Origin: a virus
Length of the DNA: 35,979 nucleotides
Reading direction: 5' to 3' (one strand)
IMG/VR virus record: IMGVR_UViG_3300041809_000527
Location: 1 to 35,979 of that record
Shown here: positions 9,716-34,681 of the stretch, piece by piece
Position numbering within the stretch: the first letter of the stretch is position 1
How the letters are laid out: each line of letters begins with the position of its first letter
Program-made: the position numbers and the translations under genes
Notes under the pieces: model-generated
Databases searched by the model: none
Seen by the model: only the letters and a program-made list of their open reading frames with translations
What the model was told of the DNA's origin: nothing

Positions 9716-9790
9716 TGCGGGGTAGTTCAGCGGTAGAATGTCGCGCTCATAACGCGAAGGTCGTGCGTTCAAATCGCACCCCCGCACCCA
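9716..9790 (+). tRNA. tRNA-Met (CAT)
   Basis: A full cloverleaf can be drawn. The acceptor TGCGGGG pairs with CCCCGCA, the D arm is GTTC/GAAT, and the anticodon arm TCGCG/CGCGA carries loop CTCATAA (anticodon CAT). The T arm is GTGCG/CGCAC with loop TTCAAAT, and an encoded CCA follows. The anticodon stem lacks the three G-C pairs of an initiator, so an elongator Met or a lysidine-modified Ile tRNA is implied. The base before CCA is C, unusual for either. Phage tRNAs often supplement host decoding. Confidence 0.88.
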
Positions 9791-9798
9791 TTTATCCA

Positions 9799-9833
9799 TT
9801 CCAGCGCCCGTAATCTTTCGGGCGTAGCTGGAA
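9799..9833 (+). repeat. inverted repeat competing with the tRNA-Pro 5' half
   Basis: TTCCAGCGCCCG (9799-9810) can pair with CGGGC (9819-9823) and GCTGGAA (9827-9833), with GTA (9824-9826) bulged: 12 pairs around an 8-base loop. The right arm is the acceptor and D arm of the downstream tRNA, so this helix and the cloverleaf exclude each other. Confidence 0.6.
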
Positions 9834-9891
9834 GGTCGAGCCCCGCGCCTGGGACGCGGAGACGCGAGTTCGATTCTCGCCGCCCGGACCA
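9818..9891 (+). tRNA. tRNA-Pro (TGG), atypical
   Basis: The acceptor TCGGGCG pairs with CGCCCGG (first pair T-G). The D arm is reduced to three pairs (GCT/AGC) with GG in the loop. The anticodon arm CCGCG/CGCGG encloses CCTGGGA, anticodon TGG. The variable loop is AGAC, the T arm GCGAG/CTCGC has loop TTCGATT, and ACCA ends the gene. G72, A73, G35 and G36 agree with the known bacterial proline identity set. The base before the anticodon is C instead of the almost universal T33, and D-arm pair 13-22 is a G-G mismatch. It may be a functional oddity or a decaying gene. Confidence 0.72.
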
Positions 9892-27154: not shown

Positions 27155-28891
27155 TTGGGAGGCTACACTCTTCCGGTCCAAATCTCAAACGATCCGAGCG
27201 ACCCGACGCAGAATAACCCTTACGGTGTTTACGGGTACAACGGGTACGGTGGCTTCTCGCCCTATTCTGGCGGCATTGACAATTCTTCACAGAACTGGGG
27301 AACAGCGGTGGGCGCAGCAGGACAAGACGTAAGCCCAAGCGCCAGCATCTCCGATATCACAAGCGCTAACCGCAATCAGATTTCGACGGAGGGGAACGTC
27401 ATCGCCCAGCAGGGCGGCAACGAACTCAATTATTACGGCCCCCTTCAGCAGCAGTACACCGGAGCGGAAAACCAAGCTCTCAACGAACTGGAAGCCACTC
27501 CAGGGTTCACGCCGGATCAATCCGCCCAGATCAACGCAGACTATTCGCAGTTCAACACGACGCCGGATCAGTACAGCGGCATCACGAATACACTCGGAAC
27601 CGGCGTAGGCGCCGAAACCGGCTCTTTGACAAATTACGGCCAAAATGTTGGCCAGCAACTCGCCAACTACGAAACCAATTTGAGCGGAGAAGTCGGAAAC
27701 TATGACACGTGGACCGGAGCGGCCAATACCGCTTACGGACAGAATGTGAATGCCGCTCTCGGACAAGCTGGAACCGGCATCGGAACGGCCACCTCGGGGC
27801 TTGCAACCGGGCTCCAACAGGCGCAGGGAGCCTTTCAGCCACTCAATGCCGCGGTCAATAATACCGCTCTTGGTTTCGACCCGAACCAAACCGAACAACA
27901 ACTGACTCCCGCGCAACAACAAGCGATGGTGACAGCGGCCGGAACCACGGTGGGAAATCAGTTCCAGCAGGCGGAAGACACGCTGCAACAGCAAGCGGCG
28001 GCGCAGGGCAATACCAGCCCCGCCGCGCTCGCAGCGATGCGGCAACAGCTTGTCACCCAGGAAGCGGCTACCGCTGGCGACACCATGACCCAAGCGGCCA
28101 TTCAGGCTGAACAAGCAGGATTCCAGCAAGCGAGCTCCATCGAACAACAGCGCGAAGCTGCTACCCAGACACAGGCTGGATTGCAAGCAACCGCCGCGAC
28201 CACCGAGGAAGCGGCCGCGCAGGCGGCGGCGGCGCAGGCTGGCCAGACCAACGTAGCGGCGCAGGAATATCTCGCCGGCCAAGGAGTTGCCGGTCAGGAG
28301 GCCATCGGCGCAGAGAATGCCAACACAGCGGCGCAGGCTGGGGCGCAAGGCATTGCCGCCGCGAATACTATCGGCCAGGAGAACGTCGGTCAAGAGGCCA
28401 ATTACGGTCAGTTTGCGACCGGCGAGCAAAACACCATCACGGGGCAGAATTACAACAACGCCCTCACGCAAGCCCAAATGCAGTATCAGCAGGGCACCGG
28501 CAGCCAGCAGTTGACCTCTCAGGGGGCTCAGGCGGTCGGGAATGCGCAGCAGGCCGGCATGGCGTCCTATCGGTCCGGAGTAGCTGGCCAGGAGGCACAG
28601 GCGCAGCAGGGCGGCCAAGCGGCTGTACAGGCCGAGCAGGGGGCCTACGGAACGCAGACCAGCGGCATCAATCAGGCCACCCAAACGCAGGCCAATTACG
28701 CTATCGGTAAGCCCTCGCTCGGAGATCAACTTGCCAGCGGGTTAGTTCAGTCACTTTTCGCGGAAGGCGGCGTGGCAACCGAACCCACAATCGCCAAACT
28801 TGGCGAGCGCGGACCCGAAATGGTAGTCCCGGTGCCCCGGTACAAATCGCAACGAAAGTCGGAATATGACTCATTCGGGAAGGCGGCATAA
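27155..28891 (+). CDS. Ala/Gln-rich internal virion protein with tape-measure-like tail motif
   Basis: The product has 578 residues from TTG 27155 with TAGGAGGA before it. Residues 1-70 are Tyr/Gly/Ser-rich. From about 90 to 545 the protein is a helical, Ala/Gln/Gly-rich, largely repetitive region (EQQREAATQTQAGLQATAAT type), as in ejection or internal proteins. The end has FAEGGVATEPTIAKLGERGP then EMVVPV, a motif usually found at the C-terminus of tape-measure proteins (GG-x-x-x-x-P-T-I-A-x-x-GE-x-GPE-x-VVP). The next protein has the same motif. Likely carried in the head and ejected. Confidence 0.72.
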   Translation: MGGYTLPVQISNDPSDPTQNNPYGVYGYNGYGGFSPYSGGIDNSSQNWGTAVGAAGQDVSPSASISDITSANRNQISTEGNVIAQQGGNELNYYGPLQQQYTGAENQALNELEATPGFTPDQSAQINADYSQFNTTPDQYSGITNTLGTGVGAETGSLTNYGQNVGQQLANYETNLSGEVGNYDTWTGAANTAYGQNVNAALGQAGTGIGTATSGLATGLQQAQGAFQPLNAAVNNTALGFDPNQTEQQLTPAQQQAMVTAAGTTVGNQFQQAEDTLQQQAAAQGNTSPAALAAMRQQLVTQEAATAGDTMTQAAIQAEQAGFQQASSIEQQREAATQTQAGLQATAATTEEAAAQAAAAQAGQTNVAAQEYLAGQGVAGQEAIGAENANTAAQAGAQGIAAANTIGQENVGQEANYGQFATGEQNTITGQNYNNALTQAQMQYQQGTGSQQLTSQGAQAVGNAQQAGMASYRSGVAGQEAQAQQGGQAAVQAEQGAYGTQTSGINQATQTQANYAIGKPSLGDQLASGLVQSLFAEGGVATEPTIAKLGERGPEMVVPVPRYKSQRKSEYDSFGKAA

Positions 28892-28892
28892 G

Positions 28893-29432
28893 ATGGGCGG
28901 ATTCGCTGGAGCGTTGGGGCAGATCGGCACGGGTATTGCGCAAAACGCGGCCAATCGCTCTCCGGTATTTCGGGCGCTCTATCAGCGCTATCTGAGCGGA
29001 AGAAACCCCACGGGAACGCCACAGATGGCCAACAAGCCCGGTTACGGCCAAGTGGCCAATACTGCTGGGTGGACCATCAACGGGCAACCCTTGGGCGATA
29101 ACGCGCCAGCGCAAGGCCCTGGAGCAATGGGGCAGATTCCTGGCCCGACCGGCCCTCCCGGTGCCGATCCGATGGCGACCGATGTTGGTTCCGACATGGG
29201 CAGCGGAATCCCGCAACTCGCGGGGGGAACGCTCATCACGAAACCGACGATTGCCAAGATTGGCGAAGCCGGTCCAGAGGCCGTGGTGCCGTTGACTCCG
29301 CGCCCAGGGAACAAAATGCAGCCGGATATCATTGAGGGGCGCGTTGCCGCCCCGCGCGTTCCCGGCGTTCACTATTCTCGGTACAAGTCATTCAATCGCT
29401 TCGGCCCAAATGCTGGCGGAAACATAACTTAG
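28893..29432 (+). CDS. small internal virion protein with tape-measure-like motif
   Basis: The product has 179 residues from ATG 28893; an upstream in-frame ATG at 28866 lies in the preceding gene. Hydrophobic/Ala N-terminus (GGFAGALGQIGTGIAQNAAN), Gly/Pro collagen-like middle (about 65-105), then GGTLITKPTIAKIGEAGPEA and VVPL, the same motif as in the preceding protein. RYKSFNRFGP closes it. Ejection or tail-associated role inferred from the neighbour and the motif. Confidence 0.68.
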   Translation: MGGFAGALGQIGTGIAQNAANRSPVFRALYQRYLSGRNPTGTPQMANKPGYGQVANTAGWTINGQPLGDNAPAQGPGAMGQIPGPTGPPGADPMATDVGSDMGSGIPQLAGGTLITKPTIAKIGEAGPEAVVPLTPRPGNKMQPDIIEGRVAAPRVPGVHYSRYKSFNRFGPNAGGNIT

Positions 29433-33478: not shown

Positions 33479-34681
33479 ATGGGCGCAGCACGCACAGTCA
33501 CCGAACGCAGGGCCGCACGCTTGGCGCGCAAGAAATCCGCCCCCAGCGGAATGCCCGGAACGGGCGATGCCGGCGCGATCCCGCACACCGACGTCCCCAC
33601 ACAAGCCGTCACCGACCCCGTTACTCCGAAGATCGAAGACGACATGGCCGCTAGCGGCCTCCCGGTGGTTCGGGGAAACTCGAATTTGCAGCCGATGGTC
33701 CCACAGGGGCATCAAACCGTCTCCGCTGTAGGCCAGCAACTCGCAGCCCTCGGTGGTCCCGATGAAATCATCCCGGCTACGTCACGGCGCGCGGTGGAGA
33801 CGGCTTCCGATGTGGCGGACCAGACGGGTGCGGCGGTGGGCGATCCACAACCGGACCTGGAATCCCATGCTCTCGGCCAATTGGAGGGTGAGCCGAAAAC
33901 TCCCCAGGTAAAGCGTTACCTCGCGGACCTGATGAAGAAAAATCCGAACGGCCGCATTCCCGGCCAGGGGGCTATGTCCAACCGGCCGGGCGAGTCGTTT
34001 AACGAGTTTCGCACTCGCGTCTTAACGGCCACGCGCGGCCTGATGCAGAAGTTGTCACAGAACCCGACCGAACGCATCTTGGTTCCGACCTCTTCCCAAG
34101 TCATTAAGGTTGTACGTTCCTGGTGCGCGGCTGGATGCCCGGACAACTTTGCAATCGATCACCGTCCGATGCTCGCGGACGATACAGGGAAGCCCGGAGA
34201 TATTGAGCGTTTTTTCCCTAAGCCTGATGGCAAGTGGGAGTTGACGCCATTCAAGCCAGCGGACGCCAAAAACTTCCCCCCAGGCATCTATTTCATGCGC
34301 CACGGCGAAACCAGCGCTATCCAGGCGACGAACCCTTCCGCCGGCCAGAAGGCGCGGGCGCAGATCATCAGCCATATTCGGTCTGGAAACTTTCAAGGCG
34401 CAAAAGATGTGGCGACGAACGCGCATCGCGCGGGTCACCTTGGCGACAACGAGATCGAACAGGCCATCAACGAAGCGTTGCCAGGCGCGGATGATGCGGC
34501 GCGACTGCCGTCTGACCAACTGCTTGCGTCTTACAGCGCAGCGAATCCCAACAAGCGCGCAGAATTATCCCCGGCGTTTCAGCAGAGATTCAACCGGGAC
34601 ACTTTGGCGACAGTGAGCCCGGAAGCGCGCCATGCGCTGCAATCGCACCTCGGGAGGTTAGGAGTACGGCCATATAACTGA
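33479..34681 (+). CDS. histidine-phosphatase-like protein with displaced RHG motif
   Basis: The product has 400 residues, GGGAGG upstream. Residues 80-215 read as the body of a histidine phosphatase (phosphoglycerate mutase-like): AVGQQLAALGG, then TSRRAVETA (101-109), ALGQLEGEP, PGESFNEFRTRV (170-181) and a final ILVPTSSQVIKVV (200-212). The usual second histidine (VTHG) is missing there (VPTSS). The catalytic R-H-G is not at the start but at 274-276 in GIYFMRHGET, after FFPKPDGKWELTPF (245-258), which looks like the domain's normal last strand. This order suggests a circular permutation. At 63-68 a weak VVRGNS lacks the histidine and might be the original site. Residues 285-400 are helical and unassigned. 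Activity uncertain. It closes the ejection-type run. Confidence 0.72.
   Translation: MGAARTVTERRAARLARKKSAPSGMPGTGDAGAIPHTDVPTQAVTDPVTPKIEDDMAASGLPVVRGNSNLQPMVPQGHQTVSAVGQQLAALGGPDEIIPATSRRAVETASDVADQTGAAVGDPQPDLESHALGQLEGEPKTPQVKRYLADLMKKNPNGRIPGQGAMSNRPGESFNEFRTRVLTATRGLMQKLSQNPTERILVPTSSQVIKVVRSWCAAGCPDNFAIDHRPMLADDTGKPGDIERFFPKPDGKWELTPFKPADAKNFPPGIYFMRHGETSAIQATNPSAGQKARAQIISHIRSGNFQGAKDVATNAHRAGHLGDNEIEQAINEALPGADDAARLPSDQLLASYSAANPNKRAELSPAFQQRFNRDTLATVSPEARHALQSHLGRLGVRPYN

Follow-up and report, generated by a model that had tools for sequence, protein, structure and literature searches.

A probable circular permutation of a branch 1 histidine phosphatase domain in an uncultured phage

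Introduction

Enzymes of the histidine phosphatase superfamily share a mechanism in which the histidine of the RHG motif is phosphorylated, two arginine residues hold the phosphate and a second histidine assists. In branch 1 domains, the strand that carries RHG usually stands at the N-terminus. Domains with this canonical order also occur in phages, where they are represented by the family PHROG 12933 and by eight domains that were gathered by scans (L138, L144, L133, L137, L149, L150, L139 and L140).

Here, we describe P0001, a phage protein that resembles these domains in the loop following helix 1, in the GGES segment and, in most cases, in a short final hairpin. However, RHG stands in front in the canonical phage domains, and the second histidine is retained in the form of SHH, THH, THS or SHS. 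A similar picture emerges from the comparison with PF00300 proteins such as PhoE/YhfR (PDB 1h2e, 1ebb). P0001 shares with them the core sequence, the predicted fold, the RHG motif and the second arginine, but differs in the C-terminal location of the RHG strand, in Ser205 replacing the second histidine, in an extra N-terminal segment and in a helical tail.

The locus and the encoded protein

The window, that is the whole stretch of DNA analysed, comprises the complete IMG/VR virus record IMGVR_UViG_3300041809_000527 with 35,979 bases. It encodes a terminase, a protein that weakly matches portals and, on the + strand, late genes. Two adjacent tRNA genes, Met-cat and Pro-tgg, are located at 9716-9891. 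Furthermore, the products of the neighbouring genes at 27155-28891 and 28866-29432 both carry a PTIAKxGExGPExVVP-like stretch near their end, and the stretch of the latter protein weakly matches tape-measure families.

The gene for P0001 (33479..34681, like all parts described below on the + strand) encodes 400 amino acids (aa). Based on the ORF, a match to Pfam PF00300 and three homologues with 53-59% identity, it can be divided into an N-terminal segment, a putatively permuted histidine phosphatase domain and a helical tail. The motifs VVRGNS (aa 63-68), TSRRAVETA (aa 101-109), PGESFNEF (aa 170-177), ILVPTSS (aa 200-206), GKWELTPF (aa 251-258) and RHGET (aa 274-278) are all present in the translation of the ORF where the original prediction had placed them. 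The N-terminal segment (aa 1-60, 33479..33658) has a conserved TVTERR..RLAR element and a proline-rich stretch according to the alignment of the homologues, and it was mostly disordered with low pLDDT in a first AlphaFold2 model. The C-terminal tail (aa 286-400, 34334..34678) is conserved in the homologues and formed helices in the same model.

Family membership and homologues

PF00300 (His_Phos_1) matches aa 73-216 of P0001 with an E value of 2.3e-12 and 47.4 bits against a cut-off of 21.7, and homologues reach 58.2 and 55.5 bits. The match to P0001 spans only profile positions 25-158 of 194 and leaves the RHG part outside. The phage family PHROG 12933 matches aa 69-209, starting at profile position 24. 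The domain is thus confirmed as a member of branch 1 of the histidine phosphatase superfamily, with a core that lacks the N-terminal RHG strand. According to the profile alignment, the PGESFNEF motif (33986..34009) corresponds to the canonical GGESFxxF segment. The core ends with a hairpin of two strands (aa 242-258, 34202..34252; strands 242-247 and 253-258 in the model), and the canonical phage domains end likewise in the sequence comparison. RHG with the nucleophilic histidine is absent from the front of the domain and is found on the C-terminal side, after this last hairpin.

Two of the contigs that carry the three homologues of P0001 are 64-65 kb long, and the third has 17 kb. Two of them, L017 and L016, are 58-59% identical to P0001 over the full length and keep VRGNS, R104, PTSS and RHGET. 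The third one, L018 (L018:4935-5936, IMGVR_UViG_3300010403_000004), is 53% identical and retains PTSSQVI and RHGET. In this protein, a short unrelated stretch replaces aa ~63-132 with the frame intact; the lost segment had held the loop, helix 2 and R104, and no remains of it were seen in the other frames. In the tree, one clade unites the three intact permuted proteins, and it is not attached to a particular parent among the canonical phage domains. The closest canonical sequence by BLAST is L138 (33% identity to L017 over 166 aa). No further homologues were found in phage records, plasmids and genome contigs. Seven fragments of contigs that carry a related capsid gene contained none either, but they may not include this locus. 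Moreover, a scan of viral contigs for the motif RHGETxxxQA yielded no additional permuted protein, only the canonical L107. A comparison of P0001 with the sequences in the PDB was uninformative. The permuted family therefore comprises four sequences and is rare in the collections searched.

RHGET and PTSSQVI are invariant across all four family members, P0001 included. Synonymous sites are saturated among the homologues, and the proteins are still 53-80% identical, which indicates purifying selection on the permuted gene, the RHG segment included. Because RHGET lies in a block P-G-[IL]-Y-[FL]-M-R-H-G-E-T that is kept in all four proteins despite this saturation, it is no chance match. The P0001 gene is 58% identical to that of L017, compared with 44% and 30% for the two upstream neighbours.

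Profile evidence for a circular permutation

A profile built from the eight canonical phage domains matches P0001 twice. The core match covers aa 61-242 and corresponds to profile positions 20-182 (55.1 bits), and the second match covers aa 269-285 and corresponds to positions 3-19 (6.8 bits). The two matches tile the profile in swapped order without overlap, and the positions matched by the RHGET segment are exactly those that the core match leaves out. L017 and L016 show the same two-part pattern. The second match defines the segment GIYFMRHGETSAIQA (aa 269-283, 34283..34327), which would be the moved β1 together with the start of helix 1. It contains a strand in the model (aa 269-274) as well as RHGET (34298-34312) with R274 and H275. 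A linker of 10 residues (aa 259-268, 34253..34282), delimited from the sequence and the model, bridges the former C-terminal hairpin and the moved strand. On this alignment, it is nearly certain that the last hairpin is followed, via this linker, by β1 and the first part of helix 1, which include R274-H275.

The original prediction had proposed a circular permutation, and it gains support from the profile rotation that it had suggested as a check. The profile was rotated at 78 cut points and scored as a single domain against the three intact homologues. The optimum lies in one and the same column for all three proteins, between helix 1 and the RIRG loop. The rotated profile gave 70.6, 83.8 and 79.1 bits for P0001, L017 and L016, respectively, versus 55.1, 68.5 and 65.5 bits for the unrotated one, which is a gain of 13.6 to 15.5 bits; shuffled sequences did not exceed 0.4. 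Part of the gain comes from the mere presence of the motif; what is informative is that the two matches tile the profile without overlapping and that all three proteins share an optimum at a loop.

The segment VVRGNSN (aa 63-69, 33665..33685) marks the new N-terminal edge of the domain. In the canonical phage domains, RHG and helix 1 are followed by R-[IV]-R-G-x-x-[DN]-V-[PD], or by T-V-A-G in L139 and L140. P0001 VVRGNSNLQPMVPQG fits this loop, and GIYFMRHGETSAIQA fits the strand that precedes it; VVRGNS therefore represents the loop that follows helix 1 and reads RIRGxxDxPLT in canonical proteins. The earlier suggestion that VVRGNS is a dead RHG site was wrong, and a duplicated first strand, which had also been considered, is unsupported for the same reason.

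Predicted structure

The first AlphaFold2 run, which relied on the four homologues only, reached a pLDDT of 55, and its structural matches were unusable. For a second run with aa 50-300, rows of canonical domains were added after their β1 and C-terminal strands had been stripped, so that these rows did not tell AlphaFold2 where to place aa 269-274. An alignment in which the C-terminal strands of the canonical domains had been retained was not used, as those strands fell onto RHGET. The resulting model has a pLDDT of 87.8 and a pTM of 0.85. The fold is PhoE-like and aa 269-274 are confidently predicted as a strand (pLDDT of the ten-residue blocks 97 and 88), while aa 63-68 form no strand apart from one single bridge residue. 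Matches obtained with Foldseek and VIA-align were histidine phosphatases and phosphoglycerate mutases. VIA-align superposed aa 60-262 on residues 17-201/202 of PhoE (Z 16.4, rmsd 3.0, 178 residues). PhoE residues 1-16, among which RHG presumably occupies residues 8-10, remain without a partner in sequence order, and one strand of the model, bearing RHG, is left over. A vacant β1 slot is unlikely because β1 lies in the middle of the sheet in this fold, and we infer from the model that the leftover strand 269-274 fills this slot.

The model also bears on three other explanations. If VVRGNS were a degraded original first strand, the domain would have the canonical order plus an extra RHGET. The segment indeed precedes the core and contains R-G. 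However, it aligns with the canonical RIRGxxDxPL loop, it forms no strand in the model, and PhoE is matched structurally from residue 17 onwards, past RHG. The profile alignment and the start of the structural match rule out VVRGNS as a dead RHG, and a canonical order of the domain is hardly credible. RHGET could also belong to a second, truncated phosphatase copy or represent a linear motif outside the fold, next to a degraded core without β1. The fact that L018 retains RHGET with much of the core gone would agree with this explanation. However, the RHGET segment ends where the missing piece of the profile ends, no trace of the canonical helix 2 was found after it, with the tails scoring below most shuffles, and a pTM of 0.85 would hardly be expected for a core without its central strand. 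Thus, a truncated copy or linear motif is very improbable. The permutation itself may possibly have arisen by duplication, though no trace of such an event is left. Finally, the sequence evidence for the permutation would fit equally well if the RHGET strand acted in trans and completed the sheet of a neighbouring subunit by a strand swap in an oligomer. A linker of 10 residues would permit such a swap, and so would a virion protein that may occur in multiple copies, but the single-chain prediction is confident, with a strand pLDDT of about 88-97, and we consider the swap improbable. A circularly permuted branch 1 histidine phosphatase domain spanning aa ~61-283 is the best explanation overall and is probably correct.

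Active site and possible function

In the permuted domain, the moved strand would probably slot back in cis at the centre of the sheet, thereby rebuilding the phosphate pocket from R274, H275 and R104. The three residues are kept in the three intact homologues. R104 in TSRRAVETA (33779..33805) represents the second phosphate-binding arginine of the SxxxRAxxTA motif in the profile alignment; it is present in P0001, L017 and L016 and lost in L018. A phosphate-binding pocket in P0001 is plausible on this basis. The second catalytic histidine is absent. In the strand ILVPTSS (34076..34096), which aligns with the canonical vvtHsrn, its place is taken by Ser205 within the invariant PTSSQVI. The replacement of this histidine by serine had already been noted for P0001 and holds for all homologues, which makes normal turnover by P0001 doubtful.

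The domain could still be an active phosphatase, in which Ser205, Ser206 or water replaces the second histidine. The conservation of R274, H275 and R104 in the intact homologues, the invariance of PTSSQVI and the higher conservation of the gene relative to its neighbours would be in line with activity. However, the second histidine belongs to the canonical active site and R104 has been lost in L018, and we regard an active phosphatase as a tentative option. The absence of aa ~63-132 including R104 from L018 shows that a loss of the pocket is possible in one phage, and a purely catalytic reading leaves unexplained why RHGET has been kept there. As the most likely function, we lean with some reserve towards a domain that would bind a phosphorylated ligand and turn it over to a small extent or not at all; a phosphatase with weak or altered activity would come next and is possible.

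The acid-phosphatase-like proteins of fleas are animal proteins that belong to another branch of the superfamily. In the flea saliva, such proteins lacking one or two presumed catalytic residues are described to serve as binding proteins (PMC10728186). Like P0001, they are superfamily relatives that miss catalytic residues, and they provide a precedent for reuse in binding; unlike for P0001, a permutation is not mentioned in the abstract of that work (PMC10728186).

Phage relatives and the link to portal proteins

In L138:16-2154 (IMGVR_UViG_3300046740_000617), the canonical domain is fused to the C-terminus of a Mu-type portal protein (PF06074, Portal_Mu). The ORF L144:2-3044 (IMGVR_UViG_3300010362_000244) starts with a canonical domain and further on matches the C-terminal portion of a portal protein (PHROG 12082, 503-700). 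The ORF directly before it looks like the rest of the portal, and the portal gene of L144 may be split by the histidine phosphatase domain. Moreover, L139:1171-6570, which lies on the same contig as L107, is part of a very long phage protein with a frame of ~3,790 aa in L107. In this protein, a canonical histidine phosphatase domain occurs together with a 2'-5' RNA ligase/2H phosphoesterase domain, in which it resembles polyvalent proteins. The word phosphatase is absent from a 2017 survey of polyvalent proteins (PMC5512222).

The late position of the gene and the joining of canonical relatives to portals suggest that P0001 is a virion or ejected protein, which we consider rather likely. A more far-reaching proposal, in which the C-terminal nucleophile strand closes in cis, Ser205 stands in for the second histidine and both form a working but chemically altered site for phosphotransfer in a phage virion protein with a previously undescribed permutation of the fold, seems unlikely as a whole.

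Meaning for the superfamily

The histidine phosphatase family is known; the literature covered, which is a part of the whole, yielded no work joining circular permutation or permuted forms with histidine phosphatases and no earlier description of the permuted topology in the superfamily. Papers on phosphoglycerate mutase and circular permutation were judged unrelated by their titles and abstracts, one of them by its passages. At the level of the sequence, the rearrangement of P0001 is real and selected, and it occurs in a small group of uncultured phages. The RHG strand bears the nucleophile of one large phosphatase superfamily, and its N-terminal place serves to recognise the members. From a permuted member it is evident that the fold can tolerate being opened here. 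Moreover, standard profiles can miss the part of the active site that has moved, or make a permuted protein seem inactive. Since canonical phage relatives exist, a natural before-and-after pair is available for studying the effect of the permutation and of the loss of the second histidine on folding and catalysis. Finally, the findings indicate that histidine phosphatase domains have been used repeatedly in the portal and late proteins of phages.
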